From Anaerolineae bacterium (GTDB lineage Bacteria > Chloroflexota > Anaerolineae > UBA4142 > SHND01): DNA of 64,000 nucleotides. Below the pieces are notes generated by a model that saw only the letters and a program-made list of their open reading frames with translations, was not told the DNA's origin and made no database searches. Positions 29,989 to 61,586 of this stretch are shown one piece after another. The stretch is taken from contig JAJTXZ010000008.1 in assembly GCA_021463195.1 (NCBI GenBank), positions 1 to 64,000 on the forward strand, written 5' to 3'. Each line of letters begins with the position of its first letter. Position 1 is the first letter of the stretch. Position numbers and translations under genes: made by a program.

Positions 29989-30040
29989 TGGAAATTAGAG
30001 ACGAGAGATTAGAGACTAGAGATTGGAGACTGGAGACTGA
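29989..30040. repeat. Heptamer array, purL-purQ junction
   Basis: Seven units from GAAATTA to GAGACTG in one direction. The purL C-terminus (NQSPVSNL) is read from it. Confidence 0.85.
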
Positions 30041-40827: not shown

Positions 40828-42210
40828 ATGATGAATATATTTATACGTCTCGCCAGCATAACGCTTGGCGTGGCATATCTTTTGTTTGGCTTGGGACGCG
40901 GTCCGTTCCCCGTCTCCTCTGCGCACGCGGCGTCAGATTCTTGTCAACTCACCTGGACCTCTATCAGTGTCCCGCAAGCCAGCGCGCGCGATGAATTGAA
41001 CGATGTATACGCGCCAAGCGCCAACGACGTTTGGGCGGTCGGCACGGCGGACGGCGCGACGTTGACCGAACATTGGGACGGCGCGACATGGAATATTGTG
41101 CCAAGTCCCAACGCGCCAAGCGGCGCCAATGTTTTATTCGGCGTCTATGGCAGCGCGTCGGATAATGTGTGGGCAGTCGGGCGCAATCAGATTTCAGACA
41201 CTGAAACGCGCGCGCTGTTACTCCATTGGGACGGCAGCGCGTGGAATATGCTCCCTGAACCTTTGCCCAACGTCAATTATTGGCTCGCCGATGTAAGCGG
41301 TTCAAGCGCGAACGATGTGTGGGCTGTCGGAACCTATTTCGAGAACGCGGACATTAAAAATCTCGTCTTGCATTGGGACGGCAGCGCGTGGTCCCAAAAA
41401 CCGATTTCAGCTCCTCCCACACAATCTCTATATACTTTGAATGCCCTCGCCATCATCGCGCCCAATGATATTTGGGCGGCTGGCGCGGGACTGTATCATT
41501 GGGACGGCGCGGCGTGGCAACTAAAAAAGAACAGTAACGCGCGAGCCGTGACTGCCTTTGCGGCAAACGATGTTTGGTTTACCGGCGCGGGCATTAACGG
41601 TTTTTTGCATTGGAATGGCGCGCGGTGGCAGACATTTGCGCCGGACAACTCGATGTACGTCGGCGAGTTTGTCGCGCTCGACGGCGCGGCGGCTAATAAT
41701 ATCTATGCGGTTGGCAGCGCGGTCGCGCACGGTTCGCTCGGCGTGAGCCAACATTTTAACGGCACGCGCTGGCGCGAGGTCGCGATTCCCGCGGCAAATC
41801 GCAACACAAATTTGAACGGCATCAGCGTCGTCTCCGCCACTGACGTATGGGTGGTCGGTTCATTTGACAGTTTTTTGCCGCCGTCCGCCGCGCGCAGTCT
41901 AGTTTTGCGCGGCACATTACCTTGCGCCAACCCGCCATCCAGAACCCCCACGTTATTGTCACCGCCGAATCGCGGCGTTATCAAAATCGCGCGCCCGACG
42001 CTCGATTGGCGCGACATGAAACAAGCTACCTCTTATCGCGTGCAGCTTCGCGCCGTATTCGGCACATGGCAGAACACCGCGAACGTTACTGAATCGCAAT
42101 ATAAAACGCCAAAACTCGCGCGCGGCATGACGTATCGCTGGCGCGTGCGCGCGTGCAATGTTAACGGCTGCGGCAAATGGAGCGAATATTTTACATTCAC
42201 ATTAAATTAG
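40828..42210 (+). CDS. Secreted beta-propeller-like protein with C-terminal Fn3-like domain
   Basis: A 460-residue protein with a signal peptide (MNIFIRLASITLGVAYLLFGLG, mature near ASDSCQL). Residues 50-350 contain about seven related repeats of 40-50 residues, each with an (A/S)NDVWAVG-like strand and an HWDG-AW segment, suggesting a seven-bladed beta-propeller. The last 85 residues (TPTLLSPPNRGVIKIARPTLDWR, ATSYRVQLRA, MTYRWRVRACNVNGCGKWSEYFTF) look like an Fn3-type module. It is on the plus strand, embedded between polysaccharide genes of the other strand. Function unknown, probably outside the cell. The repeats are degenerate, so the number of blades is approximate. Confidence 0.75.
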   Translation: MMNIFIRLASITLGVAYLLFGLGRGPFPVSSAHAASDSCQLTWTSISVPQASARDELNDVYAPSANDVWAVGTADGATLTEHWDGATWNIVPSPNAPSGANVLFGVYGSASDNVWAVGRNQISDTETRALLLHWDGSAWNMLPEPLPNVNYWLADVSGSSANDVWAVGTYFENADIKNLVLHWDGSAWSQKPISAPPTQSLYTLNALAIIAPNDIWAAGAGLYHWDGAAWQLKKNSNARAVTAFAANDVWFTGAGINGFLHWNGARWQTFAPDNSMYVGEFVALDGAAANNIYAVGSAVAHGSLGVSQHFNGTRWREVAIPAANRNTNLNGISVVSATDVWVVGSFDSFLPPSAARSLVLRGTLPCANPPSRTPTLLSPPNRGVIKIARPTLDWRDMKQATSYRVQLRAVFGTWQNTANVTESQYKTPKLARGMTYRWRVRACNVNGCGKWSEYFTFTLN

Positions 42211-44478: not shown

Positions 44479-45620
44479 TTCAAAAGCGCGCGATAAATTT
44501 CTTGCAAACGCGCGACGCTGTCACGCAGCGCAAAAGCTTGGTCCACGCGCGCGCGCGCGTGGACGCCCATCCGCGCGCGCAACGCGGCATCGCCCAACAG
44601 TTGATTTACGCGCGCGGCGAGCGCGTCCGCATCGCGCGGCGGCACAAGAAAACCGGTCGCGCCGTCTATAATCGTTTCGGAAGGGCCGCCGACATTCGTG
44701 CTTATGACGGGAATGCCGCATGCCATCGCTTCGAGATTAGCCATGCCATAGGTTTCAAAATCGGACGGACACACGAGCAAAGAGCTTGCGCGCAAAATGC
44801 GCGGAATGTCGCGGCGAAAACCGCAAAAAATCACGGCGGCGCGCAGACGCGCGTCGCCCAGCACGCGTTCGCGCGTCATCCGCCGCGTTTCGTTCGCGTC
44901 ATCCGTTTCAAACGCGGTATCGCCGACAAATAAAAAACGCGCGTTCGAAAAAGCGTCCAAAATTTTCGGCGCGGCATTCAAAAAATTTTCGTGACCCTTG
45001 ACCGATTGAAAACGCGCGAGCAGCGTGACAAGCGGCGCGGACGCGTCAATTTGAAATTCGCGCAAAAAAGTTTCATCGCGCGCGCCCGGCGAAAAAAGAT
45101 GGGTGTCCACGCCAAAAGGCAGCACGCTGATTTTTTTTTCGAGGCGCGCATTCGTCGTCGTCAAACATTTTTTCAAATATCGCGTCGGCGTAATAATGCG
45201 CGTTAAAAGTTTTTCATAGAACACGCTCTTCCAGCCGCGCTCCGCCTGCCACCAACTCCAACATGTCCACACCACCGGAATGCGGCGCAGTTTGGCAAGC
45301 GGCGCGACATAGTACGCCGATTCGGGGTCGTTGCAATGAATCAAGCTTGGCGCGAACGCATTCAGGTACGCATTGAGACGCGGAAAAAAATCGAACGACG
45401 CCACCGGCGCGATGCCGCGAAAATGCGGCAGACGAAAGGGCATCACCTCTGCGGCGATTCCGCGCGCGCGCAATTCATCCACAAACGCGCCCGGGGTCCC
45501 GCAGATTACGCGCGGTTGAAATTCCGCGCGGTCGAGCGCGTCTAAATTCGAGAGCAGACTGCTTTCGCCGCCGCCCAAACCGCCGAGATACGAGAGGTAT
45601 AAAATAGTCCGCGCGGACAT
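44475..45620 (-). CDS. Family 4 glycosyltransferase
   Basis: A 381-residue GT-B enzyme starting MSARTILYLSYLGGLGGGESSLLSNLDAL at ATG 45620, which overlaps the stop of the flippase by one base. A longer open frame upstream is a shadow of that flippase gene and was not used. The donor region LLVCPSDFETYGMANLEAMACGIPVISTNVGGPSETIIDGATGFLVPPRDADALAAR is classic for GT4. It ends 4 bases into the start of the next gene. Confidence 0.92.
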   Translation of the reverse strand: MSARTILYLSYLGGLGGGESSLLSNLDALDRAEFQPRVICGTPGAFVDELRARGIAAEVMPFRLPHFRGIAPVASFDFFPRLNAYLNAFAPSLIHCNDPESAYYVAPLAKLRRIPVVWTCWSWWQAERGWKSVFYEKLLTRIITPTRYLKKCLTTTNARLEKKISVLPFGVDTHLFSPGARDETFLREFQIDASAPLVTLLARFQSVKGHENFLNAAPKILDAFSNARFLFVGDTAFETDDANETRRMTRERVLGDARLRAAVIFCGFRRDIPRILRASSLLVCPSDFETYGMANLEAMACGIPVISTNVGGPSETIIDGATGFLVPPRDADALAARVNQLLGDAALRARMGVHARARVDQAFALRDSVARLQEIYRALLK

Positions 45621-47182
45621 TAGCAAAAAGGAGCGCGCGCGGCGATATGCCGCCAGGCGGCGCGCAAGCTCGCCACACGCAATAAAAACCCTGCGGCGCA
45701 AAATAGCGCCAAGCCCATTAGCCCGCCGCCCAGCGTTTGCAGCAGCCACAACGCGATTTCGTTGTTTGTAATCATCGTCTGCAGCCATAAAGCGCACCCC
45801 AGACTGCCGCCGCCCGCCAGCGCCGCCGCCAACAGGATTTTGAAAAATTCTTGACGCGTCGCGCGCGCGTCTGTCGCGCGCAGCCGCCGCCAAAACTCGC
45901 GCGCGCCAACGCCGGCAAATACAAGGTCGCCCAAGGATGCCGCCAACGCAACGCCGAACACACCCCATACGCCGAGCAGCGCGAAAGCCAATGCGATGCT
46001 CACGCCCGACGCGATCGCGCTCAATAGCAACGGCAAACGACGCGATTTGAACGCGGGCAAGCCGCGCGCAATCAAACCGCCTACGCCGCGCCACGGCAAT
46101 CCCAGCGCCAATCCCGCCAACACGAACGCGCTGCGCTGTGTCGCTGCCGCATCGAACGCGCCGCGCTGAAACAAGAGCGCAATCAACGGCGCGCCGAGCG
46201 TCGCCAAGAGCGCGGCGATGGGCGCCAACCACAACGTTACGCGCAGCGCGGCGCGATTCCACTGCGCGCTCGCTTGCGTATGTTGGTCTTGCGCGACTTG
46301 GGTCGCGAAATCGGGCAAATACGTCGCGCCAATCGCGCCGCCTAACACCGCGAGCGGAATTTCGGCGAGACGTTGTCCATAACCCCACGCCGCCACGCTG
46401 CCCGCGCCGAGCGTCGAAATCAACGCGCGATTCACAATCAATTCCAGCTGTCCACTCAACGCGCCAAACATGTACGGCGGCAGATAGGTCATCAGATTCC
46501 ACACGCGCGGTTGACGCAGCGCGATTTTCGCCGTCACGCGTTTCCAACGCAGCGTGCGCGCCAGCAGAAAAACTTCCAAAATTAGCAAAACCAACAGACG
46601 CCCAAACATCATCCCGCGCACGCCCTGCTCCCACCACAACACGAAAATAAAAAAGGCGCCGAGATTCAACAGCGCGACCAGAAAAGTATTTAACGCCGCC
46701 GTCGCAAAATCGCGATAGGCGAAACAAATGCCCAACAGCAAACCAGCTGTCGCGTAATAAAACAAGCTCGGCAAAATCAAACGCGCCAATTCCACCGCGA
46801 GCGCGCGCGTGTCGGGCGCAAAGCCGGGCGCCAACCATGCCATCAGCCACGGCATTGCCCACGCCAAAAGGGGCAGCGCGATCATTACCGCGCCCAAAAC
46901 CCATCCGAGCAGCGAGAGCGCCATGCTCCACGCGGCGCTTTCGCCATGCTGCGCGCGCGCCTCGATAAACATCGGCGTAAACACAATACTCAACGTGGCA
47001 AGCATCAATACATATTGCAATGATTCGGGAATCGAAATGGCGAGCGTGTACGCGTCCATTTGCGCGGTGGCGCCAAACGCGCGCGCGATGAGGATGGTGG
47101 TAAAGAATTGCAAAATCATCGCGCTAGCATTCGCCAACGCGAGGAGCGGCGTAGCGCGTCGCAGCCAACTCAGCGGGTTCAA
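45620..47182 (-). CDS. MurJ/Wzx-type lipid-linked oligosaccharide flippase
   Basis: A 520-residue protein with about 14 membrane spans of the MOP superfamily. It starts MNPLSWLRRATPLLALANASAMILQFFTTILIARAFGA and keeps MviN/MurJ-like blocks (YTLAISIPESLQYVLMLATLSIVFTPMFIEARAQHGESAAW, then GLALGLPWRGVGGLIARGLPAF). It probably moves undecaprenyl-linked repeat units across the membrane. Its place next to several glycosyltransferases points to polysaccharide export rather than peptidoglycan synthesis, though a lipid II role cannot be excluded. Confidence 0.88.
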   Translation of the reverse strand: MNPLSWLRRATPLLALANASAMILQFFTTILIARAFGATAQMDAYTLAISIPESLQYVLMLATLSIVFTPMFIEARAQHGESAAWSMALSLLGWVLGAVMIALPLLAWAMPWLMAWLAPGFAPDTRALAVELARLILPSLFYYATAGLLLGICFAYRDFATAALNTFLVALLNLGAFFIFVLWWEQGVRGMMFGRLLVLLILEVFLLARTLRWKRVTAKIALRQPRVWNLMTYLPPYMFGALSGQLELIVNRALISTLGAGSVAAWGYGQRLAEIPLAVLGGAIGATYLPDFATQVAQDQHTQASAQWNRAALRVTLWLAPIAALLATLGAPLIALLFQRGAFDAAATQRSAFVLAGLALGLPWRGVGGLIARGLPAFKSRRLPLLLSAIASGVSIALAFALLGVWGVFGVALAASLGDLVFAGVGAREFWRRLRATDARATRQEFFKILLAAALAGGGSLGCALWLQTMITNNEIALWLLQTLGGGLMGLALFCAAGFLLRVASLRAAWRHIAARAPFC

Positions 47183-48294
47183 TGAATCAACTGCCGCGCG
47201 GCAAGTTCGGCATTGGCTTGCGCCACGCGGTCATCCGCCAATTCACGCTCCGCCCACGCCCACCATTCGCGCACGCCATCATCGAACGCGCAGCGCGCGG
47301 TAAAACCGTAGGTCGCGTGGAAACGCGTCATGTCCGCGAAACAATGCCGAATATCGCCGGCGCGAAATTGCCGCGTCACTTGCGGCGCCAGCTCGACCGC
47401 CATGACGCGCGCCAGCGTTTCCGCCACTTGATAAATCGAACGCGGTTGTCCGGCGCCGACGTTGAACGCTTGCCCGTCGCCCGCGTCGCTTTCCAATGCC
47501 AAAATAAGCGCGCGCGCGATATCGCTGACGTGAATAAAATCGCGCAGCTGCGCGCCATCTTCGTACACTAAGGGGGCTTGGCCATTTTTCAAGCGCGCGC
47601 CGAAAATCGCGATCGCGCCCGTGTACGGATTCGACAACGCTTGCCGCGAACCGTACACATTAAAAAAACGCAGCGCGACGGTCGGAATCGCGTACGCGCG
47701 TCCCAGCACAAGCGACAATTCTTCTTGGTCGCGTTTGGTGATGGCATACGTCGAGGTCGGCGCCAACGGTTTCGCTTCGGGCGTCGCGAGGGGCGTGAGG
47801 AGCGTCGCGCATTGCGGGCAATACAGTTCCCAAGCGCGCGCGCGCAGTTGCGCTTCGCTGCGAGGGGGGGGGGCGACGCGCCCGTGATGCGGACACTGAT
47901 ACGCGCCTTCGCCGTAAATGGACATGGACGATGCGACGACGACTTTGGCGACGCGCGCGCGCGCTTGCGCCAAGCGCTGCCACAGCAACGCGGTGCCGCG
48001 CGTATTGACATCCACATAGCGCGTGATTTCATACATGGATTGCCCCACGCCCACTTCGGCGGCGAGATGAATCACGGCATCGGCGCGCGGCAGCGCGCGC
48101 GCCCAAACATTTTCATCGCGCACGTCGCCGTGAATAAATTCCACGTCACGCGTCACGCGCGCGGCGGTTGCGTTCGCGCCATGCACCTGCGGCGTCAGCG
48201 CGTCCAACACAATGACATGCTGTCCGCGCGCGAGCAGCGCCGCGACCACATGCGAGCCGATAAAACCCGCGCCGCCAGTCACCAGAATATTCAT
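47179..48294 (-). CDS. NAD-dependent epimerase, dTDP-L-rhamnose 4-epimerase-like
   Basis: A 371-residue short-chain dehydrogenase/epimerase. The NAD site is NILVTGGAGFIGSHVVAALLARG and the catalytic Tyr/Lys pair is in STYAITKRDQEELSLVLG. A cysteine/histidine-rich insertion (CPHHGRVAPPP then WELYCPQCATLL) forms a likely zinc ribbon, typical of the dTDP-L-rhamnose 4-epimerase group. The product could be dTDP-6-deoxy-L-talose. A run of ten G on the plus strand (47864-47873) codes APPP in frame. It overlaps the flippase by 4 bases. Confidence 0.85.
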   Translation of the reverse strand: MNILVTGGAGFIGSHVVAALLARGQHVIVLDALTPQVHGANATAARVTRDVEFIHGDVRDENVWARALPRADAVIHLAAEVGVGQSMYEITRYVDVNTRGTALLWQRLAQARARVAKVVVASSMSIYGEGAYQCPHHGRVAPPPRSEAQLRARAWELYCPQCATLLTPLATPEAKPLAPTSTYAITKRDQEELSLVLGRAYAIPTVALRFFNVYGSRQALSNPYTGAIAIFGARLKNGQAPLVYEDGAQLRDFIHVSDIARALILALESDAGDGQAFNVGAGQPRSIYQVAETLARVMAVELAPQVTRQFRAGDIRHCFADMTRFHATYGFTARCAFDDGVREWWAWAERELADDRVAQANAELAARQLIH

Positions 48295-49190
48295 TGGACC
48301 GTCGTCCGACGCGCGCGCGTCAAATTATTTTTCATTCGATGCAAGCTCATGCGTGTTTCAAAACAAGCGCGCACCAGCCAGTACGCCGATGCGCCAAAAT
48401 GTTTGCGATAGTAATACAAAAAACTATCCCAATAAATTTGATGAAATTTTTCGGACGCGCGCGTCACCGTGCTAGCGCCGCCATAATGAATCAACTGCGC
48501 GTCAGCGACATGAAAAATTTTCCAGCCGCGCTGATGCAGACGCAAACACCAATCCACCTCTTCGCTATAAATGAAAAAGCGCGGGTCGAGCAAGCCCGTC
48601 TGCTCCACTGCCGCGCGTCGCGCCAACAACGCCGCGCCGGAAACGGCATCCACCGCGCGCGTCGTTGTTCGGTCCCAGTCGGCATAGATATTGTGCCGCA
48701 AAATGAAATTATGCGGGAACAGCCGATTGAGCGCGAGCGCTTCAAAAACGCCAAACCATAACGTTGGAAAACGGTTCGCGGTGCGCTGCAGCGAGCCGTC
48801 GCCATTCCACAAACGCGGGCCGCACGCGCCCGCTTCGGGTTGCGCGTCCATGAACGCAATCAAGGTATCGAGGCAATGCGGCAAAAGGCGCGTGTCTTCG
48901 TTGAGGATGCACAGGTAACGCCCCACGCCGCGCGCTAACGCGCGATTGTGATTCGCCGCGAAACCGGCGCGCGTTTCGTTTTGCAGCAGCGTGACTTGCG
49001 GAAATGCGCGCGCCACCATCGCCGCGCTGCCGTCGGCGGAGGCATTGTCCACCACAATCACTTGCAGCCGCGCGCGCGTCGTTTCAAAAAGCGAGCGCAA
49101 ACAGTTTTCGAGCAGCGCGCGATTGTCGGTGTTGACAATCGAAACGGTGAGGTCGGGCGGCGACGCGGCGTTAGCGTTTGACAACGACAT
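48291..49190 (-). CDS. Family 2 glycosyltransferase
   Basis: A 299-residue GT-A enzyme starting MSLSNANAASPPDLTVSIVNTDNRALLENCLRSLF. Donor binding and catalytic segments are QVIVVDNASADGSAAMVARAFPQVTLLQNETRAGFAANHNRAL, the DxD-like ILNEDTRLLP, and FFIYSEEVDWCLRLHQRGWKIFHVADAQLIHYGG. This matches the WsaF/RfbN-like rhamnosyl branch. It starts inside the preceding gene's 3' end (49171) on the same strand. Confidence 0.88.
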   Translation of the reverse strand: MSLSNANAASPPDLTVSIVNTDNRALLENCLRSLFETTRARLQVIVVDNASADGSAAMVARAFPQVTLLQNETRAGFAANHNRALARGVGRYLCILNEDTRLLPHCLDTLIAFMDAQPEAGACGPRLWNGDGSLQRTANRFPTLWFGVFEALALNRLFPHNFILRHNIYADWDRTTTRAVDAVSGAALLARRAAVEQTGLLDPRFFIYSEEVDWCLRLHQRGWKIFHVADAQLIHYGGASTVTRASEKFHQIYWDSFLYYYRKHFGASAYWLVRACFETRMSLHRMKNNLTRARRTTVQ

Positions 49191-50634
49191 ATTGCGGCGA
49201 ACCGATGAGCTCGAGCCGAATGCGCCCGACGCGCGGATTCAGATCGCCGGGATGGTTATCGCGGACAATTTTGACATTGCCGTACAAGTCGGTCACGCTC
49301 AATCGTTTGGCGCGAAAATTCATGCGCGCTTGAGCGCGCGGATACGCGCAGGGCGCTTTGCCGTCCGCGCGCGCGCGATTCGACCACACAACCCATTTGG
49401 TTTTGGCGCCATCGGTAAACTGATATCCTTCCACCGTTTTCGTTTTGGTCCAACGCTTGATATAGGTCCAACCGTTCATTTCGCCAAAGAGCGTTTGAAA
49501 CGCGTGATAGGATGATTTTTTAGTTCCAGCCGTATCCACCAATCCGTAATACCAGCCCTTGCCGGGATTGTCCACCATAGTCCACCAAACAACGGTCTCG
49601 AGCGAAATCGCCATACCGCGCACAAACGAAATGGTCAAGCAGCGACTCTGTCCATCCGCGCCAATCCATCCGTCTTGTGAATCTTCGCCCGTTTCGGTCA
49701 CAAACATCGGAAAGAAAACGCCCGCGTCGTTCATGCGTTTTTGAATCGCGGCGGCTTTGGCTTGAATGCCGCGCTGCCCTTTGCCGCTGGGTTGGCGTTC
49801 CCAATGCGGACCGTAAATATCGTAATAAGTAAACGCAAGCGCATCCGCATAGGGTTGTCCATTCGCGCGCGGATGGGATGCCATATATCCAAAGAGGTTG
49901 GGTAAAAAATTGTAATCGAAATGCGACGCTGGGAGACAACCGTAATTAGGCGGGCAGGTTTTGATATCAAAATCGTCAAAGGCGACCGTCATGTACACGC
50001 GCGCTTCGGGATTGGCTTGAAGCGCCGCGTCGCGCGCGATGCCCAACATTTCGGCGTATTCAGCGTAATCGGGAACGCCGTTATAATTTATATCAGCGGT
50101 TTCATCATCGCCAAAACAGCCGCCGGTGTGAAAAGGCACGCTGCTGCCATCCGATTCATTGTACAAACCCCAGCGTTTGATTTGCGGATAGCGCGCGGCA
50201 ATCGCGCCCATGAATTCGGCAAAATCGGCGCGCCGCGCTGCGTTCGTTGTATCAATGGGACCGCACGGCGTATTCGCCACCCAGCTCGGATTTTCGGCGA
50301 TGTAAACGAGCGGGACCAAACCCGCCTCCAAAAGACGATTAAAGAGCGCGTCAATGGGCTCCCAGTTGTAATTGGCGGATGTGGTGTTGGACGGCTCTAA
50401 TACTTTCCAATACAACGCAATCCGCAAATACGCCGCGCCGGTATCACGCGCCAACGCGGTAACTTGGGGATTCGACGAGGTGACACCGCCGTCATCCATC
50501 GAAAAAAATTCGGATGTGATGGGGCCCTCTGCTAGAGCGGTGGTGAATAATCCGCTCAAGCCCCAGAGCAGCGCGCCGATTATCCACAAGCGGCTCAAGC
50601 GGAATACTTTGATTTTAATTTGTCGCCTGAACAT
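49171..50634 (-). CDS. Secreted glycosidase-like protein, clan GH-A type (copy 1)
   Basis: A product of about 487 residues beginning MFRRQIKIKVFRLSRLWIIGALLWGL (signal peptide; cleavage probably after ALAEG). It resembles the two following paralogues. A TIM-barrel-like fold is suggested by AYLRIALYWKVLEPSN, LVPLVYIAENPSWVAN, and the putative acid/base in KRWGLYNESDG with nucleophile in MFVTETGEDS. It carries an EF-hand-like loop (DINYNGVPDYAEY) after the acid/base and the Cys pair CGP and GGCFG. The family cannot be fixed; GH39/GH5/GH113-like clan A is likely. ATG 50634 is preferred over 50703. Confidence 0.72.
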   Translation of the reverse strand: MFRRQIKIKVFRLSRLWIIGALLWGLSGLFTTALAEGPITSEFFSMDDGGVTSSNPQVTALARDTGAAYLRIALYWKVLEPSNTTSANYNWEPIDALFNRLLEAGLVPLVYIAENPSWVANTPCGPIDTTNAARRADFAEFMGAIAARYPQIKRWGLYNESDGSSVPFHTGGCFGDDETADINYNGVPDYAEYAEMLGIARDAALQANPEARVYMTVAFDDFDIKTCPPNYGCLPASHFDYNFLPNLFGYMASHPRANGQPYADALAFTYYDIYGPHWERQPSGKGQRGIQAKAAAIQKRMNDAGVFFPMFVTETGEDSQDGWIGADGQSRCLTISFVRGMAISLETVVWWTMVDNPGKGWYYGLVDTAGTKKSSYHAFQTLFGEMNGWTYIKRWTKTKTVEGYQFTDGAKTKWVVWSNRARADGKAPCAYPRAQARMNFRAKRLSVTDLYGNVKIVRDNHPGDLNPRVGRIRLELIGSPQYVVVKR

Positions 50635-52228
50635 AGATTGGATTGTGGTCCACCTGCAAGCCAATACTTTGCGCCGCGCTATCTTGATCGTCGGGAGAAC
50701 CATCGGTTATCGCGCGCGCGGCGCCAAACATGTCGGTAATTTGGAGCGCATTGCCCGCGAATGAAACCGTAATCGGCTCGGCGGACGCGGACCATACAAT
50801 CGCTACGCCCGCGCCATGTTTATTGAATAGATATCCTTCGCCGCCATCTATACTCAACACTTGAACAAAACTCGCGTCTCCCAAAATTTGAGTTGCGGCT
50901 TGAAACGCGCTGTACGAAGGTTTCGGCGACGCGTTCTGGTCAATCAGACCGTACTTCCACGTATTGGAAGGGGGGGGGGCGGAATCGGGAAAATCTTGGA
51001 ACGTCCACCAAATCATGCGCGCGATCTTGGCGCTCGCGCCGCGCACAAAAGTTTTGACGAGAAAAGCGCTCTGCGCTTCATTGCCAATCGTCACAGAATC
51101 TTCGCCGGTTTCGCTCACGAGCAGCGGCGCGGCTAAACCGTATTGCCGCATTCGCTGCGTTAACGCGTTGGCTTTGGCAATCACGCCTTGACCATCATAA
51201 TGCGCTTCCCAATAGGGCGCGTAGAGGTTGTAATAGTTAAAACCCAGCAAGTCGAAATATTTTTCGCCGGGCGGCGGCGGATTCGCCTGCATATAGGCGA
51301 ACAAGTTATCGAGAAATTTCGCGTTAAAGATGCCGCCTTTGCCGCCATCGAAATAACCTGAGGGCGCGGACGCCTCATCAAAATTATCGAACGCCACCGC
51401 GCCAATAACCAATTTGGCGTTGGGATTGCCGGCATGAATGGCGCGCCAGGCAAGCTGTAATTGATTGGCATAGTCCACATAATCGGGTTTGCCATTGCCG
51501 TCAATATCATCGCCGCCAAAACAACCGCCAGTCGAAGTCGCTTCGCCGTGCGCGTTGTCCGGCTCGTTATACAATGCCCAGTAGGTAACATTCTGATTGC
51601 GCGCCGCGAGTTGACGCAAGAATTGATCGTACGCCACCAAGTCGGTGACGGGACCGCATTTGGTGGACGCGCCCCATTTTGCGTTGTCCATAATCAAGAC
51701 GAGTGGTTCAAAATGATTGTCGGTCAAGAGCCGAAAACCCGTATCGGGCCAACGCCAATCGAATTTGCCCGGTGTCGGTTCGACTTGCTGCCAGGTTACG
51801 CTTGTGCGCACCATCCGCGCGCCGCTCAAAGTCGCGAGCGCGCGCACATTCTCTTGCGCGTTGACTTCGCCATTTGTGCTAATGCCAAAATAATCGGCGA
51901 GGGACTGCGATGATACGGGCGCGGCGGTTGGCGCCAAGGTTGGCGCCTCTGTCGGCGCAACGGTCGCTTTCGCAGTAGGCGCGTTCGTTGGCGCAACAGT
52001 CGCTTTCACAGTGGGCGCGTTCGTTGGCGCAACAGTCGCTTTCGCAGTAGGCGCGTTCGTCGGCGCGACGGTCGTTTGCGTTGGAACGACTATGACGGTC
52101 GGTGCGCTGTCACCAGTTGTCGGCTGTGTTAAAACAACTGGCGTCGGCGGCGCGCTGCACGCCGCCATGCTTGCAAACAGAATTAAACTTGCGCCAAGAT
52201 CCAAGCGCGTCAATCGTTTCATTTTCAT
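50615..52228 (-). CDS. Glycosidase-like lipoprotein (copy 2)
   Basis: A 537-residue protein. A lipobox near FASMAAC (Cys24) predicts lipid anchoring. Residues 45-105 are a threonine/proline linker with tandem APTNAPTAKATV-type repeats, as in many Chloroflexota surface proteins. The catalytic-like domain has SGARMVRTSVTWQQVEPTPG, the acid/base candidate Glu222 in YWALYNEPDNAHG and the nucleophile candidate Glu373 in LLVSETGEDS. An EF-hand-like loop (DIDGNGKPDYVDY, residues 241-253) follows the acid/base. A run of ten G (50970-50979) keeps the frame. It starts 12 bases before the next gene's end and overlaps copy 1 by 20. Confidence 0.75.
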   Translation of the reverse strand: MKMKRLTRLDLGASLILFASMAACSAPPTPVVLTQPTTGDSAPTVIVVPTQTTVAPTNAPTAKATVAPTNAPTVKATVAPTNAPTAKATVAPTEAPTLAPTAAPVSSQSLADYFGISTNGEVNAQENVRALATLSGARMVRTSVTWQQVEPTPGKFDWRWPDTGFRLLTDNHFEPLVLIMDNAKWGASTKCGPVTDLVAYDQFLRQLAARNQNVTYWALYNEPDNAHGEATSTGGCFGGDDIDGNGKPDYVDYANQLQLAWRAIHAGNPNAKLVIGAVAFDNFDEASAPSGYFDGGKGGIFNAKFLDNLFAYMQANPPPPGEKYFDLLGFNYYNLYAPYWEAHYDGQGVIAKANALTQRMRQYGLAAPLLVSETGEDSVTIGNEAQSAFLVKTFVRGASAKIARMIWWTFQDFPDSAPPPSNTWKYGLIDQNASPKPSYSAFQAATQILGDASFVQVLSIDGGEGYLFNKHGAGVAIVWSASAEPITVSFAGNALQITDMFGAARAITDGSPDDQDSAAQSIGLQVDHNPIYVQATN

Positions 52229-52239
52229 TCGACGCTGCC

Positions 52240-53781
52240 TTACGGATTGATTTGGACAATCATCGGACTCGCGCCGACATTAATGCCAATGACGCCCACG
52301 GCAGGATTTTTATCTTTTTTGGAACCATCCTGAATGGTTTTGACTTTGATCACATCCGCCTTGTTCAAAACGCCCGCGCCATTAACCACGCGCAGCGTCT
52401 GGGCTTGAAATGAGGCAAGCTTGGTTGAACGAGACCATGAACATTCCACATTCGCGCCGCGTGTTGCGCTCGCCGACCACACAACATATTTCTTGCCGCT
52501 TATGCCGCCAAAACGATACGCTTCGACGCCGGTGAAACCGCTTTTGTTGGTCAACGTCTTTTCAAAGTTATAGCCGTTCAACTCGGCGGCAAGCGTTTGT
52601 AACGCGGCGTACGAGGGTTTTTTGGACAAATCCATTCGGACGACGCCATAATCCCAATTCGGATGCGGCTCGGCATGGTCGCGGAATGTCCACCAGATGA
52701 TGCCTTCCAATTTATTCGCGGCGCCGCGCGTCAGCGTCATGGTCAAGCAGCGCGCCTGACCTTTTTCGCTCACGCCATCGTCAGATACGGGAGATGAATC
52801 TTCGCCCGTTTCGGTGACGAATAATGGCACGACGGGAATGCCAGCTTGGGTCATGAGTTTTCGCAACGCTTTGACTTTGGAGCGAAAACCGAGCGCCGGA
52901 TTCGATTTGTTCCAATAATAGGTGCCGAACAGATTATAGTAATTGAACAACGCCAGGTCCATGTATTTCTGATTATTGGGCAGCGGATTATTTTTCATGT
53001 ACTGGAACAAGTCGGGGGCAAATTTATAGTTAAACAACCCGCCACTACCGCCGCCGGGGTAACCGCTGGGCGCGGTGCTAGCATTGAAATTATCGTACGC
53101 CAGCGCGCCCATAGCAAAGCGCGCGTCATTGTCGGTCGCTGTATTCGCATCATGCACCGCTTTCCATCCAGCCGCAAGCAGCTCGGCATAATCCATATAA
53201 TCTTTGTTGCCGTTATTGTCCACATCGCCATTGTACGCCGAGCGCGCGCCGAAACAACCGCCCGTGTTGAGAGTAATGTTGCTATTGTCGAAATCCACTT
53301 CATTGTACGCCGCCCAGACACGCACGCCCGGATACCGTTCGACAAGTTTGTACAAGAGATTGGCAAACGCTTGCGTTTTGCCCGGTTTGAGAGGTCCGCA
53401 CGTTGTATTGGACGCCCATGTCGGATTTTGGTCAATATATACAACTAACGAAAAACCCGCGTCGAGCAAACGATTCAGCGTATTATCGGCGCTCGAAAAA
53501 TTATAATTGCCCTCAGTAGGTTCGAGCGAGCTCCAATAGAGCGCAATGCGTTCCCAATTTACGCCGGTCGCCGCCGCCAAGTCTGTGGTGACTTGACTCC
53601 CCGACACGACACCGCCATCGTCAATGCCAAACACGCTTGCCGCGCCGGTTGGCGCTGCGGACGAGCGCGCGGGCGTTTGCGCCCACACAGGCGTTGCCAC
53701 CTGAATAAGCGCCGCGAGAGCCAATAACGCGGCTAGCGTCAAACCGCGCGCCGCCAATTTTCGCGTTGTCCAATGTATCAT
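52240..53781 (-). CDS. Secreted glycosidase-like protein (copy 3)
   Basis: A 513-residue protein with a signal peptide (residues 1-34, cleavage after VWA) and no lipobox. The domain layout repeats the other two copies: NWERIALYWSSLEPTEG, acid/base candidate Glu161 in WAAYNEVDF, nucleophile candidate Glu324 in LFVTETGEDS, and an aromatic WWTFRDHAEP. An EF-hand-like loop (DVDNNGNKDYMDY, about 186-198) and the Cys pair CGP (about 128) and GGCFG (176) are shared. Sequence similarity over the whole length suggests recent tandem duplication. AAGGAGTG precedes the ATG. Confidence 0.75.
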   Translation of the reverse strand: MIHWTTRKLAARGLTLAALLALAALIQVATPVWAQTPARSSAAPTGAASVFGIDDGGVVSGSQVTTDLAAATGVNWERIALYWSSLEPTEGNYNFSSADNTLNRLLDAGFSLVVYIDQNPTWASNTTCGPLKPGKTQAFANLLYKLVERYPGVRVWAAYNEVDFDNSNITLNTGGCFGARSAYNGDVDNNGNKDYMDYAELLAAGWKAVHDANTATDNDARFAMGALAYDNFNASTAPSGYPGGGSGGLFNYKFAPDLFQYMKNNPLPNNQKYMDLALFNYYNLFGTYYWNKSNPALGFRSKVKALRKLMTQAGIPVVPLFVTETGEDSSPVSDDGVSEKGQARCLTMTLTRGAANKLEGIIWWTFRDHAEPHPNWDYGVVRMDLSKKPSYAALQTLAAELNGYNFEKTLTNKSGFTGVEAYRFGGISGKKYVVWSASATRGANVECSWSRSTKLASFQAQTLRVVNGAGVLNKADVIKVKTIQDGSKKDKNPAVGVIGINVGASPMIVQINP

Positions 53782-53994: not shown

Positions 53995-53996
53995 TT
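53970..53996 (+). terminator. Possible terminator
   Basis: GGCGCGC and GCGCGCC with a six-base spacer and a T-run on the plus strand. On the minus strand the U-run is weak, so the direction is unclear. Confidence 0.4.
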
Positions 53997-55470
53997 ACGC
54001 GCGATAAAAGGGCACGATGAAAATAAATAACGCCGCCAAATTATACAAAGCTAACGCTATCGTTATAATGGCGAACCACCACACATAACGCGCCCGCGGA
54101 ATAAAACCGCGCAAGCCCAGCAAGAATAACGTCGCCAGTGGAATCAACACCGAAAACAAATAACGTCCTTGCGGATCGCCGCCCCAACCCAAATCCCAAA
54201 AGCGCACTTCTAAAGCGATGATTGTGCCGAGCGCGATGAGAACGCTCGCGCCAAACACAAACAAGACCGCGCGCCGCCACGCTTCCCACTGCGGCAGCGT
54301 CTTGAACGCGAACCACACCAGCCCGACGAACGCAAAGATCGAGAGCGCGGCAAATAGCCAGTATGCCTGCACGCCCAACGTGATATTCATCCAACCGAAA
54401 TGGCCCCACGTGCTGATAAAGAGATATTTTAAATAGCTCGCATACAATGGCAGCGCGGCGGGCGAGAGAATGCGTTCATACGATTCAAAGGGAAATTGTT
54501 CGGTGGGCAAAAACAAAAAGAGCCGCACAATATAATCATACAGTTGCGGTTGATTCACCTGCGTCCAATTCCACGCATAGAGCAAACCCACCGCGCCGAG
54601 CGTAAGCATTATGACCGTCAGCGCGAGACGCATACTTTTTTGCGATGTCGAAAGGCGCGCGCCGCCCCAATGCGTAAAACTATACGCTAAAAACGCGAGA
54701 CCGAGAATGGGCAGCGCGTACATGCCGCTGCGTTTCGCGCCCAACCCAATCGCCACGCACAACAGCAAGCCCACTGCGCGCGGCAGCGATAAACCGAGAC
54801 GGAATACGCGAGCGAGGAGAACAAACATCCATGCTAGCGCCGCTTCGACCAAATGGTCATTCATTACCGTGCTGTGCAAAAATAAATGCTGCGGCAGCAA
54901 CATCACAAATATCGGCAGAGCCAACGCCAGCGTTGGGTCATCGCGAAACAATTCGCGCCCGGCATAGTACGCCGCCAGCACAACCGCCACATTCAACGCA
55001 ATCGAAAGCAGCCGCATCGCGTACAATTGGGCGGTGATGCTGCGCCCGCTCGTCAATTCCAACGGAATCAAATATGCCAAATACGCAAGCGGCGGCTGAT
55101 GGAGTTGGTGCGCGTTTTGCGGATAGATTTTCGCGAAATCGTCGGGTAGCGGCGACACGCCGTCGGGCTTCCATGCCGAAACGCCCCATTTCCAATAACC
55201 CACCGCGTCCATCGAACGCACAATTTCCGTCATAATCTTTTTATCGGCATCACTCCAACTGACTAGGCGTCCTTTTTCGTACAACAGCCGCGCATATTCA
55301 TAATGGCGCGGCTCATCCGGGCCGCCCCAGGGCGGAATCACAGCCAGATAAATCAACCCCAACGCAAACGTAATAATCGCAAACAAAAGAGGCAGCGCGC
55401 GAAGATTCAATAGAGCTTGTTCTTGCGGGGAAAGCGGCGCCGACGCAGCCGTCACATTTAGCGAATTCAT
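53995..55470 (-). CDS. Multi-span membrane protein, DUF2142/GT-C glycosyltransferase-like
   Basis: A 491-residue protein with about 11-12 hydrophobic spans. The first extracytoplasmic loop reads AVIPPWGGPDEPRHYEYARLL, with a DE motif as in GT-C glycosyltransferases and DUF2142 members, followed by QNAHQLHQPPLAYLAYLIPLEL. These proteins use polyprenyl-linked sugars at the outer face of the membrane. The exact reaction is unknown. It lies in the polysaccharide region on the minus strand, separated by a repeat array (55525-55610) from the second sugar transferase. Confidence 0.75.
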   Translation of the reverse strand: MNSLNVTAASAPLSPQEQALLNLRALPLLFAIITFALGLIYLAVIPPWGGPDEPRHYEYARLLYEKGRLVSWSDADKKIMTEIVRSMDAVGYWKWGVSAWKPDGVSPLPDDFAKIYPQNAHQLHQPPLAYLAYLIPLELTSGRSITAQLYAMRLLSIALNVAVVLAAYYAGRELFRDDPTLALALPIFVMLLPQHLFLHSTVMNDHLVEAALAWMFVLLARVFRLGLSLPRAVGLLLCVAIGLGAKRSGMYALPILGLAFLAYSFTHWGGARLSTSQKSMRLALTVIMLTLGAVGLLYAWNWTQVNQPQLYDYIVRLFLFLPTEQFPFESYERILSPAALPLYASYLKYLFISTWGHFGWMNITLGVQAYWLFAALSIFAFVGLVWFAFKTLPQWEAWRRAVLFVFGASVLIALGTIIALEVRFWDLGWGGDPQGRYLFSVLIPLATLFLLGLRGFIPRARYVWWFAIITIALALYNLAALFIFIVPFYRA

Positions 55471-55524: not shown

Positions 55525-55610
55525 GTAAATCAACAATCAGAAATCAAAAATCACCCAATCACCCAATCACCCAATTTTCAATTTCCAAGCTCTATTCTCC
55601 ATTCTCCACT
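55525..55610. repeat. Mixed heptamer/octamer array
   Basis: AAATCAA/CAATCAG/AAATCAA units at 7 bp, then three CCAATCAC units at 8 bp, then CTATTCT/CCATTCT units at 7 bp. It links the 8-bp array of 29026-29135 with the heptamer family. Confidence 0.8.
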
Positions 55611-57031
55611 CAATACGCCCCTCGCCCGCTTAACACCACCGGCACTGTTTTCGCCAAAATAACCAAATCGCGCCAAATCGAGTAATTTTCAATATAGTCC
55701 AATTCCAACTTCATCCATTCGTCAAACGACAAATCGCCGCGCCCGCTAATTTGCATCGCGCCCGTGATTCCCGGTTTCACCAACAAACGCTGGCGCTGCA
55801 ACGGCGAGTATTGTGACGCCAAGCGCATCATTTCGGGGCGCGGCCCGACGAGCGACATATTGCCCCACAACACATTGAAAAATTGCGGCAATTCATCCAG
55901 CGACGCGCGCCGCAGCCATTTACCTACGCGCGTCACGCGCGGGTCATTGCGTAATTTAAAATGCGGCTCGGACAATTCGTTCACATTCACCACTTGATCG
56001 AGCAGCGCCTCGGCATTCGCCACCATCGTGCGGAATTTGTAAATGCGAAACGGTTTGCCATATTGGCCCGCGCGCTCTTGCGTAAACAAAATCGGTCCTG
56101 GCGAATCGAGCCGAATCAGCGCCGCTAACGCCAGCATCACAGGACTGCACACAATCAAACTCAACGTCGCGCCGACCACATCCAACGCGCGTTTCAGCGC
56201 GCCATTGATGCCCGTAATCGCCGGCTCGCGCAGCGTAATCATCGGCAATCCGCGCAGCGTTTCGATGCCCGTCCGTACCGTCACCACTTCGAGCAAATCG
56301 GGCATCAGTCGCACGCGCACATGCTGCTCGCGCAGCGCCAAAATCAATTCCGCCAATTCCGCGCGCCCGCGCGTCGTCTGCGACAAAAACACATCGTCCA
56401 CATCCAAACGGGTCACCAAGCGCGCCGCGTCTTGCAGCTTGCCCAACACCGGCGCGTTAGGCAATAGATCTTCCGCCGCTGCCGCGTCACGGTCGGCGAC
56501 AAAACCGAGCAGCGTAAATTCTGGCCACGTTTTTAGATGCGTCGCCAACTCTTGCGCCGCCGTGTCCACGCCGACAATAATGGCGCGACGCGCGGACACA
56601 GGCGCGCCGCGCCGCGTGCGCCATGCGCGCGCCCCTGCGCGCCACAGCAGCGTCAATGCCACATCCAACCCAAAGAAATACGCGAACAGCGCGCGCGAAA
56701 ATAATTCCACCTTGAAAAAATAAAACGACGCCGCGAGCGCGCACACCGCAAACACGCACGCCAACAAAACCGCGCGCGCCTCGTCGCGCCATTCTTCGCG
56801 ATTGCGCCGTTCGTACGCGCCGAGAAAATAAAACACGACGCTCCACACCAACGCGACGAGCAGCAAAACACCCGCCGTCACATATTCGCGGTCCGGCACA
56901 ACGCCGAACGGCAAAATGACGCGCGCGCCCGCCGCCAATAGCATCGCCAAGACCGCGCCCGCGACATCACCCACCCACAACACAACGCCGGCGTGATGAC
57001 GCCGCGATGGCGCGCGTTCAATCCAATTCAT
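55610..57031 (-). CDS. Polyprenyl-phosphate sugar-1-phosphate transferase (second copy)
   Basis: A 473-residue WbaP/WcaJ-type enzyme. Membrane spans and a CoA-binding-like domain (AIIVGVDTAAQELATHLK) precede the catalytic domain with IYKFRTMVANAEALLDQ, LRNDPRVTRVGKWLRRASLDELPQFFNVLWGNMSLVGPRPEMM and KPGITGAMQISGRGDLSFDEWMKLELDYIENYSIW. It differs from the first copy, so it probably starts another polysaccharide or loads another sugar. ATG 57031 overlaps the next gene's stop by 4 bases. Confidence 0.93.
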   Translation of the reverse strand: MNWIERAPSRRHHAGVVLWVGDVAGAVLAMLLAAGARVILPFGVVPDREYVTAGVLLLVALVWSVVFYFLGAYERRNREEWRDEARAVLLACVFAVCALAASFYFFKVELFSRALFAYFFGLDVALTLLWRAGARAWRTRRGAPVSARRAIIVGVDTAAQELATHLKTWPEFTLLGFVADRDAAAAEDLLPNAPVLGKLQDAARLVTRLDVDDVFLSQTTRGRAELAELILALREQHVRVRLMPDLLEVVTVRTGIETLRGLPMITLREPAITGINGALKRALDVVGATLSLIVCSPVMLALAALIRLDSPGPILFTQERAGQYGKPFRIYKFRTMVANAEALLDQVVNVNELSEPHFKLRNDPRVTRVGKWLRRASLDELPQFFNVLWGNMSLVGPRPEMMRLASQYSPLQRQRLLVKPGITGAMQISGRGDLSFDEWMKLELDYIENYSIWRDLVILAKTVPVVLSGRGAY

Positions 57032-58122
57032 CGCGCATCCCAATATTGTTGAATCATTTCGCGCAACCGCGTCTTGAAATGCGGAATCGAAAACTGCTGC
57101 GCGTGCGCGCGCATCCGCTCCGCGTCAAAACAAAGCGTCGCCGCGCGCGCGATCGCGTCGGCGACCGCCGCCGCGTCCTGAACCTGAAACAAAATGCCCG
57201 TTTCGCCGTCGCGCACGCTTTCCAGCGCGCCGCCCGCCGCATACGCAATCACCGGACAGCCCATCGCTTGCGCCTCGACCAACGTGATGCCAAAATCTTC
57301 GATGCCGGGGAAAAGCAGCGCGCGCGCGCCTGCCAGTTGTTCGCGAATCACCGCCTGCGGTTGAAAACCCAAAAACTCTACGCGCGCGCCCGCGATTTTT
57401 TCCAACGCCTTGCGCTCGGTGCCATCGCCAATCACGCGCAGCGGCACATCCAATTTCTTGCACGCTTCAATCGCCAAATCAAAACGTTTGTACCGCACGA
57501 GTCGGCCCACAATCACATAATACGCGCGCGCCCGTTTTTCAAGCGGCGTGAATAAATCCAGATCAGCCGGCGGATACAACACCGCCGCGTCGCGATGATA
57601 CAGTTGACGCAGGCGGCGCGCGACAAAACGCGAATTGGCGATGAAATGGTCCACGCGCTGCGCGGCGGCGACATCCCACAGCCGCAAATGGTGCATATAG
57701 CTTGCCGCGAACGGACGCAGAAAAAATGGCAGCGCGCGAATATATTCGTACGACAAATCCCACGCGACGCGCTGACGCGATTGCGTGTACGAAATGTGCA
57801 ACGCGTCCGGCGGCGGAATCAAACCTTTGGCAATCAAACTCGACGACGACAAAATCAAATCATAGCCGGAAAAATCAAACTGTTCGATCGCGTATGGCAG
57901 CAGCGGCAAAAACATTTCATGCGTGCGCCCGGCGAATGGCAACCGCTGCACGAACGAAGTTCGCAAATCTATTTCGCGCAGCCACGCCGCGCCGCGATGG
58001 CGGTCATAAATCTGCAGCGTGTACACGGGCGCGTCGGGAAACATTTCATGCAGCACGCGCGCCACCATTTCGGCGCCGCCCATGTTGCAAAAATATTCAT
58101 GCGCCAACGCTATCCGCATCAT
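57028..58122 (-). CDS. Family 4 glycosyltransferase (mannosyl-type)
   Basis: A 364-residue GT-B enzyme starting MMRIALAHEYFCNMGGAEMVARVLHEMFPDAPVYTL. The donor half has YYVIVGRLVRYKRFDLAIEACKKLDVPLRVIGDG and GARALLFPGIEDFGITLVEAQAMGCPVIAYAAGGALESVRDG. This is close to the GT4 mannosyl/galactosyl type. ATG 58122, with the following AUG also possible. It overlaps the neighbour by 4 bases at each end. Confidence 0.9.
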   Translation of the reverse strand: MMRIALAHEYFCNMGGAEMVARVLHEMFPDAPVYTLQIYDRHRGAAWLREIDLRTSFVQRLPFAGRTHEMFLPLLPYAIEQFDFSGYDLILSSSSLIAKGLIPPPDALHISYTQSRQRVAWDLSYEYIRALPFFLRPFAASYMHHLRLWDVAAAQRVDHFIANSRFVARRLRQLYHRDAAVLYPPADLDLFTPLEKRARAYYVIVGRLVRYKRFDLAIEACKKLDVPLRVIGDGTERKALEKIAGARVEFLGFQPQAVIREQLAGARALLFPGIEDFGITLVEAQAMGCPVIAYAAGGALESVRDGETGILFQVQDAAAVADAIARAATLCFDAERMRAHAQQFSIPHFKTRLREMIQQYWDAR

Positions 58123-59291: not shown

Positions 59292-60301
59292 GAGCGTCGC
59301 AGTTGCGCGGCGACCAAATTGGCCAAGCGTGCGCTCAGCGGCAACGCGCACGCCGCGCCGATGAACGCGGGCAAGATAAAGACGACTAGATGTAACAGAA
59401 TGGCATACGCCAGCGCGGCGCTTTCAGAGACATTATAGACACCGAGCGCCAAAATGACGAGATAGTGAAACACGCCGAGATTCGCGGGCAGCGCCGGCAC
59501 GCGCGTGCCGATTTGCAAAACGACCAGTAAAAATAGCGCCGCGCTCCAGGGCAGCGCGAACCCCAACGCCAGAAACAAAACGTAATTAACCGCGATGCCC
59601 AAGCTCCACATAACGGCGGTCCATAACAATACGGCAAACGCTTCGCGCCGCCCGCGCAAATTTTGCAAGCTCTCCAAGATACCGCGCGCAAAATCGGCGA
59701 ACCGCCGCGCGTGCGTTCCAAATAATTTTGCCTCGCCGCGCGCCAGCGTGTTTAATAACGGTTCGCGCAAACGCGTGACGCTCGCCAACACGATTATACC
59801 AAGCAACCCGCTTAACGCGCTCAAGCCCAATGAATCGCGCGCCCATTCCGGCAGCGGCGCAAAGGGCGCGAGCAGCAGAAACAAACCCAACATCACCAAT
59901 GTATCCAAAACTTTTTCAAGCGCCACCGAACCCAACGTAAATCCAACATTCAGTTTGGCGTGTTCCGCCGCCAGCGGCACGCGCGCCACCGTGCCCAATT
60001 TCGCGGGCAGCAGCGTATTTAATACATGCGCGACAAAAACAATTTGCGCCAAAAATAAATACCGCGTCGGATAGGGTCGCAACAAAATTTGCCACCGCCG
60101 CGTCGAAGCGAACATCGCGCCCAACTGCAGCCAGAACGCAAGCAAGAACCAACCTAGTTGCGCGGAAACTAACGCCGCCGCAGTGGCATCGCGATTGACG
60201 CCGCGCGCAATCACCGCAAACGCGCTAACGCTCAACAGCGCGCCAAACACCGCCGAAAACCATGCGCCGCGCGAACGCTTTTCATTTTGCGAATTACTCA
60301 T
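59288..60301 (-). CDS. Lysylphosphatidylglycerol synthase-like/AglD2 family membrane protein
   Basis: A 337-residue protein with about eight hydrophobic spans, of the UPF0104/LPG synthase TM-domain family (AglD2-like). Features include RWQILLRPYPTRYLFLAQIVFVAHVLNTLLPAKLGTVARVPLAAEHAKLNVGFTLGSVALEKVLDTLVML, typical of the family. Such proteins are thought to act as lipid or lipid-sugar flippases, but proof is limited. It sits between two polysaccharide genes, overlapping each by 4-8 bases. Confidence 0.82.
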   Translation of the reverse strand: MSNSQNEKRSRGAWFSAVFGALLSVSAFAVIARGVNRDATAAALVSAQLGWFLLAFWLQLGAMFASTRRWQILLRPYPTRYLFLAQIVFVAHVLNTLLPAKLGTVARVPLAAEHAKLNVGFTLGSVALEKVLDTLVMLGLFLLLAPFAPLPEWARDSLGLSALSGLLGIIVLASVTRLREPLLNTLARGEAKLFGTHARRFADFARGILESLQNLRGRREAFAVLLWTAVMWSLGIAVNYVLFLALGFALPWSAALFLLVVLQIGTRVPALPANLGVFHYLVILALGVYNVSESAALAYAILLHLVVFILPAFIGAACALPLSARLANLVAAQLRRS

Positions 60302-61586
60302 ATGACGCGTCGAATGACAGAGCGCGATACAGCGCAGTCAAGAGCGCGAGGAGCAGCCAAATTATTACACTCACTTTGGAGCTGACGAACACCGCGTCGA
60401 GCATCCCATGCGCTAGAAACACAATGTATCCGGCGACCAAGCCCAGCGCGAGCAGCGCGTTCGGCGTGCCGCGCGCGCGCTTTATTGTCGTCACGCCGAG
60501 CGCAAGCATTGTCGTCGTCATTCCAATAAAACAAACGAATCCGCCGATGCCATAATCCACCGCCATTTGCAAATACATATTGTGCGCGTGCGGCAGCGGC
60601 GCGTCGGGACTGTTGATAAATAGCGGATACATCACCGGAACGACTTGGGAAAATGCGCCCAAGCCAATTCCCGTAAAAGGAAAATCTTGGGCGATGTAGA
60701 GCGCGCGCGACCATAATTCAAAACGTCCCGCCGCGGTGACGGTGGAATCGTCAAGCGTAGCGAAATCCGCCGCGCGATTCGCTTCTACGCCGAGAAACGC
60801 AATGACCGCGCCAATAAGCAACGCCGCGACGAGCCAACCGACGCGCGGCTTGAGCCACAGCGCGCTAAACGCAACGCTCACGACAATGCCAATCATTGCG
60901 CCGCGCGATTGAGTCAAAACGATGATTGTCAGCAGCGTTAACGAAATGCCGAACAATGTCAAGCGCCGCCGGCGCGTTTGCTGCCAACCCCACAGCCAGC
61001 ACAATGGAACAATCGGCGCGAGCGCGCCCGCGACGATATTGGGCGTAAAGCCGCGCGGATTGAAAATCGAAAAATCAAATTTGGGAAGGTACGCGTAAAT
61101 TGGCGCGGGCAAAAATTTATCGGGCCAGCGCAAACCGAGCGCGCCCGCCAAACCCATCGCGAGCGCGAGCCCAATCAAAAGATAGAGCGTGATTGTAAAG
61201 GGCTTGGAAATTCCGCGCGCCGCGTCGACCTGGGCTGATTCGCGCGCGCGCAAACCATTGACGACGCCAAAATAGAGCGCCGCGCCGCCGACAAGTTCCG
61301 CGTACAAGCGCGCGCTCTGCGGAATATCTATCGAAATGCCGACGGCAACCAAACCCAATAATAATAACAGCGCAAGCGGCAAATCAAGCGGCGTGGCAAT
61401 AGACCAATGTCCGCGCGCGATTCGGCGCGCAATCCAAAAAAACGGAATCGCGCACAGTGTCGCCGCGAAAAACCAGAACGGGAGACTGCTTGAAATCAAA
61501 AGCGGCGCGCCATACAACCACAACAGCCAAAATTCATTATCGGCAATCAGGGTCGCAGCGCGCCGCCAAAACAAAGCACGCGTCAC
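60294..61586 (-). CDS. O-antigen ligase/Wzy-like membrane protein (second copy)
   Basis: A 430-residue polytopic protein with about 10-11 spans. The extracytoplasmic loop contains RFELWSRALYIAQDFPFTGIGLGAFSQVVPVMYPLF and PLPHAHNMYLQMAVDYGIGGFVCFIG, the Wzy_C/O-antigen ligase block with the conserved H. Together with the first copy (35885) it indicates two polymerase/ligase systems in one locus. It lies 1 base after the chain-length protein and overlaps the LPG-family gene by 8. Confidence 0.88.
   Translation of the reverse strand: MTRALFWRRAATLIADNEFWLLWLYGAPLLISSSLPFWFFAATLCAIPFFWIARRIARGHWSIATPLDLPLALLLLLGLVAVGISIDIPQSARLYAELVGGAALYFGVVNGLRARESAQVDAARGISKPFTITLYLLIGLALAMGLAGALGLRWPDKFLPAPIYAYLPKFDFSIFNPRGFTPNIVAGALAPIVPLCWLWGWQQTRRRRLTLFGISLTLLTIIVLTQSRGAMIGIVVSVAFSALWLKPRVGWLVAALLIGAVIAFLGVEANRAADFATLDDSTVTAAGRFELWSRALYIAQDFPFTGIGLGAFSQVVPVMYPLFINSPDAPLPHAHNMYLQMAVDYGIGGFVCFIGMTTTMLALGVTTIKRARGTPNALLALGLVAGYIVFLAHGMLDAVFVSSKVSVIIWLLLALLTALYRALSFDASYE

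Follow-up and report, generated by a model that had tools for sequence, protein, structure and literature searches.

Three tandem PslG-like glycosidases with a predicted calcium-type loop in an Anaerolineae polysaccharide locus

Glycosidases encoded in polysaccharide loci, PslG and PelA among them, are important yet poorly understood. PslG of Pseudomonas aeruginosa, a member of glycoside hydrolase family 39 (GH39; PDB 5bx9, 4zn2 and 9g17), is an endo-beta-glucosidase whose gene belongs to the Psl cluster (PMC11912335), and its activity and inner-membrane association are involved in normal Psl synthesis (PMC6813494). Loops of the Dx[DN]xDG type are in turn documented in folds other than the EF-hand, glycosidases included, by Rigden and co-workers (PMC3123361). 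Here we describe three tandem genes, designated A, B and C, in a stretch of 64,000 nucleotides from an Anaerolineae bacterium (GCA_021463195.1, contig JAJTXZ010000008.1, positions 1 to 64,000; hereafter the window, meaning this whole stretch). Each gene codes for a PslG-like barrel with a complete EF-hand-type loop shortly after its putative acid/base residue. We consider it probable that the trio are retaining endo-glycosidases of the PslG/GH39 type that process the polymer made by their own locus, and that a calcium site of structural function makes the rim of their active-site cleft more rigid.

A PslG-like barrel with an invariant catalytic pair

An earlier note, made from the letters of the window, had described three tandem open reading frames (ORFs) for glycosidase-like proteins, and all three lie where it had placed them. 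The genes and their shared motifs are as follows.

52240-53781, minus strand: paralogue A (513 aa), PslG-like clan GH-A glycosidase, secreted, signal peptide with predicted cleavage between ...PVWA and Q
50615-52228, minus strand: paralogue B (537 aa), PslG-like glycosidase, lipoprotein signal (MAAC), linker rich in proline and threonine (P/T)
49171-50703, minus strand: paralogue C (510 aa from the first ATG), PslG-like glycosidase, secreted
53293-53304, minus strand: predicted acid/base of A, NEVD (E161)
52795-52812, minus strand: predicted nucleophile of A, ETGEDS (E324)
51557-51568, minus strand: predicted acid/base of B, NEPD (E222)
51095-51112, minus strand: predicted nucleophile of B, ETGEDS (E373)
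50149-50160, minus strand: predicted acid/base of C, NESD (E183)
49678-49695, minus strand: predicted nucleophile of C, ETGEDS (E337)
51647-51658, minus strand: first invariant cysteine motif of B, CGPV, the predicted disulfide partner of GGCFG
51515-51529, minus strand: second invariant cysteine motif of B, GGCFG, immediately preceding the EF-type loop

B and C each share 39% identity with A. Because the first ATG of C overlaps B by 89 bases, translation of C probably starts at the internal ATG at 50634 (MFRRQIK...). The NEVD, NEPD or NESD motif, ETGEDS, CGP and GGCFG all occur in the three proteins where the note had described them.

Neither Pfam nor NCBIfam yielded an informative family name for the window proteins; the Pfam GH39 model has no match among them and matches just 2 of 28 family members. 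A profile built from these 28 sequences found its best solved relatives in PslG (E 1.6e-23) and the GH39 enzyme 5jvk (E 6.8e-23), with the next at 1e-10. An AlphaFold2 model of the B domain made on the same alignment has a mean predicted local distance difference test (pLDDT) score of 94.3; a model from the three window sequences alone reached a pLDDT of 58 and was discarded. With the B domain model as the query PslG ranks first in Foldseek (E 1e-24), and VIA-align gives Z of 33-34 over 367-374 residues for PslG and 5jvk and 27 for the next chain. The model is a (beta/alpha)8 barrel followed by a C-terminal beta-rich part, as in GH39. Across all 28 sequences N115, E116 and E267 (model numbering) do not vary, the Asn-Glu pair following strand beta4 and the second Glu standing at the end of beta7, which supports the catalytic residues that the note had assigned. 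Profile, Foldseek and VIA-align together with the invariant Glu pair bear out the glycosidase assignment, and A, B and C are PslG-like, GH39-type clan GH-A barrels. By analogy with the GH39-type family, their catalysis would proceed with retention.

In a tree of the family these proteins fall into one clade of 20 (support 100/99) that comprises four orthologous groups, A (6), B (6), C (4) and D (3), and a twentieth member that is a single copy behind a stretch reading like a PA14 domain. The clade is restricted to one genus and persists after the loop columns are removed from the alignment. The stand-alone member with the PA14-like stretch at its N-terminus (L042:2932-5487) also has a P/T linker and lies away from the polysaccharide locus. 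Elsewhere in the genome of the window there is a distant GH-A relative (G000:C56, L100:8055-9818) with a membrane anchor and no EF-type loop.

The residue that follows the acid/base Glu is fixed in each group, being V in A, P in B, S in C and V in D. Retaining clan GH-A enzymes can transglycosylate, and the V, P and S of the three conserved paralogues suggest different acceptor or subsite chemistry, as would be expected if these enzymes joined or branched polymer chains, or attached them to an acceptor, with no hydrolysis. We find this reading very doubtful, since the literature treats PslG, their nearest relative of solved structure, as a hydrolase (PMC11912335).

An EF-hand-type loop between strand beta4 and helix alpha4

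The loops of the three proteins lie at the following positions.

53191-53226, minus strand: EF-hand-type loop of A, DVDNNGNKDYMD, residues 186-197
51473-51508, minus strand: EF-hand-type loop of B, DIDGNGKPDYVD, residues 241-252
50059-50094, minus strand: EF-hand-type loop of C, DINYNGVPDYAE, residues 204-215

The D-x-D-x-N-G-x-x-D-Y loops that the note had reported after the acid/base are present in all three proteins, and the full pattern extends over 12 positions as D-x-[DN]-x-N-G-x-x-D-x-x-[DE]. The D or E found at position 12 in A, B and C makes this a complete EF-type loop, not a mere DxDxNG fragment. The strict motif D.[DN].[DN]G..D..[DE] is confined to A, B and C when 21 window proteins are searched, and it has 0 matches in the 233,546 residues that make up the other ORFs of the fetched loci, which rules out a chance motif.

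The loop starts 18-25 residues after the acid/base, within the segment between beta4 and alpha4, so that its placement inside the catalytic domain holds in the model. Specifically, in the B domain model beta4 ends at 115, the acid/base is residue 116, the conserved Cys is at 130, the loop spans 135-146 and helix alpha4 spans 143-161. The end of the loop thus begins helix alpha4 in EF-hand fashion. In this model the loop is the last part of the beta4-alpha4 loop and by barrel topology would lie at the rim of the catalytic face. It is not a canonical EF-hand domain: the leaving helix 143-161 is present, residues 127-142 are without helix and the motif is single. A dockerin is likewise ruled out, as there is one loop within the barrel rather than a duplicated loop-helix in a separate small domain, and no Pfam dockerin match appears at E up to 1. 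When a segment of B spanning the loop (34 residues) is compared with the PDB, most matches are calmodulins or further chains of EF-hand type. The best two are 8x39 and 8x3a, whose repeated loops look dockerin-like; all these matches are weak (E from 0.03 up), as expected for so short a piece. Literature searches on GH39 with EF-hand and calcium, and on GH13 calcium loops, found nothing.

All 20 members of the genus clade carry the loop. Position 1 is D in 16 of them and G in 4, position 3 is D/N, position 5 N, position 9 D and position 12 D/E in all 20, and position 6 is Gly in 16. The three window proteins have oxygen-ligand residues at positions 1, 3, 5, 9 and 12, as do 16 of the 20 clade members overall. 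The four copies with Gly at position 1 are all A-type (four of the six A copies), being orthologues in four sister genomes; the window's own A keeps its Asp. Calcium binding is therefore least certain in A-type copies. For the clade as a whole, calcium binding by the loop is likely.

The invariant Asn at position 5, the Gly at position 1 in four A copies and a residue other than Gly at position 6 in 4 of 20 members are features that would also fit a metal-free loop, one that had lost calcium or never bound it in vivo and that served as a substrate-binding or protein-docking surface resembling an EF loop. We regard this as quite unlikely, given that positions 3, 5, 9 and 12 are held in 20 of 20 members and that two relatives from other families of the class have the loop at the same position, in genome G528 as DVNQNGTPDPEE and in genome G515 as DLDHDGIPDPVE, the latter in textbook form. 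Most other relatives of the genus clade lack the loop, as does PslG. When the loop columns are removed the G528 and G515 relatives group together, apart from the genus clade, indicating that the loop was gained twice or lost often. In relatives from L018, L069, L079 and L081 the acid/base strand is closely preceded by a second calcium-like motif, RYDGDGxxDxPGSPxVxYWE.

Proximity to the acid/base, at 18-25 residues within the beta4-alpha4 segment, raises the question of whether the site acts as a switch, with catalysis depending on external calcium and polymer trimming following extracellular calcium. A parallel is offered by the peptidase PepX, which lost its activity when a comparable calcium loop was doubly mutated; however, PepX was not significantly affected by ethylenediaminetetraacetic acid (EDTA) or added calcium (PMC10536834). 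Several A copies lose position 1 yet keep their catalytic residues, which suggests that a perfect site is not needed, and most relatives keep the catalytic pair without the loop. A calcium switch is thus unlikely, if by no means negligible. A stabilising role for the loop in the cleft wall of a secreted enzyme is most likely, being the most economical.

A genus-wide cassette in a polysaccharide locus

The trio is part of a polysaccharide locus, as the note had it, flanked by an initiating transferase, glycosyltransferases, a flippase and a Wzy-type protein.

53995-55470, minus strand: multi-spanning membrane protein directly upstream of the trio, GT-C-like glycosyltransferase by its homologues
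55610-57043, minus strand: polyprenyl-phosphate sugar transferase (Bac_transf), the initiating enzyme of the locus
48291-49190, minus strand: GT2 glycosyltransferase downstream of the trio, order kept in related genomes
47179-48294, minus strand: nucleoside diphosphate (NDP)-sugar epimerase downstream of the trio, kept in some related genomes
45620-47182, minus strand: MurJ/Wzx-type flippase downstream of the trio, order kept in related genomes
60294-61586, minus strand: Wzy/O-antigen-ligase-type protein
61588-63987, minus strand: Wzc-like chain-length/kinase protein, as read from its sequence
51951-52074, minus strand: P/T linker of B, its coding sequence being a 36-base tandem repeat in 3.4 copies

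An A-B-C or A-B-D cassette occupies the same place in the locus in all related genomes read. The gene order in L037-L041 is DUF2142-like membrane protein, A, B, C or D, GT2 and MurJ/Wzx-type flippase, with the NDP-sugar epimerase between GT2 and flippase in the window and in L038. At least three clade members scoring >500 bits were found in all 6 sampled genomes of the genus, whereas relatives in other genomes reached at most 261 bits, and 0 of 14 genomes from the other family of the order passed 1e-50. A duplication artefact of one assembly is ruled out by the presence of the cassette in six genomes with orthologous groups. No relative was found in viral contigs or plasmids, leaving a phage or plasmid origin without a candidate source there.

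Export signals, which were read by eye, also follow the groups. The lipoprotein with a P/T linker that the note had singled out is B, and a lipoprotein signal plus P/T-rich linker is kept in 6 of 6 B orthologues; the A, C and D groups have ordinary signal peptides. For one of the three the note had allowed an anchor or a signal; in C a normal signal peptide is likelier than an anchor, with probable cleavage between TALA and EG and agreeing sites in orthologues (AAFA and DG, SARA and EG, PVLA and DG). These constant differences between groups, both in export signal and in the residue behind the acid/base Glu, speak for a separate task for each of the three enzymes.

Breakdown of plant glycans is a frequent function of GH39 and clan GH-A enzymes, and Anaerolineae ferment carbohydrates, so the trio might instead degrade environmental beta-glycans as food, its position in the locus being accidental. 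This we hold to be highly unlikely, as the trio lies between the initiating transferase and DUF2142-like protein on one side and GT2 and flippase on the other in all related genomes read. Furthermore, a DUF2142-like protein also neighbours the relatives elsewhere in the class, and frequently a gene for an initiating transferase, Wzy or UPF0104 is close by.

Homologues of the 53995-55470 protein in L046, L098 and L099 match DUF2142, those in L046 and L098 also PMT_2. Across the class, proteins of this DUF2142/PMT_2-like kind are repeatedly encoded close to these glycosidases (window, L046, L049, L050, L098 and L099), which hints at a functional pair. Between glycosyltransferase genes of the window, at 40828-42210 on the plus strand, lies a gene for a secreted protein in which W-D-G motifs recur and the C-terminal domain is Fn3-like. 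Finally, at 13904-32240 seven-base repeat arrays (GGAGACT/GGAGATT) are found both within and between genes of the purine-synthesis region, and the apparent PurH, PurD and PurL proteins thereby gain in-frame stretches, NLQSPISNPQSPISNLQS for example; the two-unit pattern has 72 matches against 0.01 expected, all within 13.9-32.3 kb.

Proposed role and comparison with known systems

We propose that A, B and C are exported across the membrane, A and C through cleavable signal peptides and B remaining tethered to the membrane on a flexible P/T stalk, and that they would act on the polysaccharide of the surrounding Wzx/Wzy-type locus. By analogy with PslG, processing of the polymer of their own locus is most likely, and it could consist in trimming chains, setting their length, releasing polymer or clearing mis-exported material. 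As ancient and non-interchangeable paralogues, the three would work in different places or on different linkages. Their beta4-alpha4 segment would hold an EF-hand-type loop for one calcium ion, with helix alpha4 starting at the final residues of the loop, and the bound ion and the nearby putative disulfide (CGP-GGCFG) would most likely stiffen the cleft wall and stabilise the secreted enzyme.

Several points weigh against this proposal. The whole-protein Pfam scan gives weak clan GH-A matches that are mostly below cut-off. The entering helix of a true EF-hand is missing, loop position 5 is always Asn where Asp is the commoner residue, and the site may be weak or lost in A copies that have no first Asp. 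The targets of the enzymes could also be foreign polymers. A more far-reaching version, which we would call a long shot, is that the trio of this genus forms a calcium-responsive unit for polymer processing, in which calcium sets the geometry of the cleft and its outside level would thus alter how the polysaccharide is cut or joined, with tethered and untethered paralogues working on different linkages.

The locus matters in that a whole genus maintains three diverged glycosidases as neighbours, which differ in their export signals and share a recurrent calcium-type loop near a catalytic residue. It makes testable the questions of why three cutting enzymes should be needed for one polymer and whether matrix processing responds to calcium outside the cell, and it adds a predicted EF-type loop in a GH39-like barrel.

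When set beside described loops of the Dx[DN]xDG type (PMC3123361), the loop shares the spacing, with predicted ligands at 1, 3, 5 and 7 (carbonyl) and later acidic residues; it differs in having Asn at position 5 and a clan GH-A barrel as host, no such host standing in the part of that work's list covered here. The 5jvk enzyme, a family 39 member from the gut symbiont Bacteroides cellulosilyticus, has the same fold (Z 33.8 over 369 residues) and an aligned nucleophile region. In contrast, its identity is 20% and its NEPNYAD runs into a helix with no EF-type loop in the aligned stretch. Anaerolineae relatives of the GGCWG type (e.g. L043-L050) share the domain, both Cys and the catalytic residues, and several adjoin a DUF2142-like membrane protein and polysaccharide genes as the trio does, whereas they have no EF-type loop, occur as single or dispersed copies and form separate clades. 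PslG itself agrees in its full-length fold (Z about 33), a catalytic Glu pair in the same frame, the C-terminal beta-rich part and a gene within a polysaccharide biosynthesis cluster. Its identity is, however, about 17-18%, and its segment from NEP[DN] to helix alpha4 has about 7 residues as against about 23 in the window proteins, so that the GGCFG Cys and the EF-type loop are an elaboration missing from PslG. PslG-like enzymes of polysaccharide loci are already known, and in the case of PslG there is one enzyme where here there are three paralogues; the most unusual feature of this locus is thus its genus-wide three-paralogue cassette.

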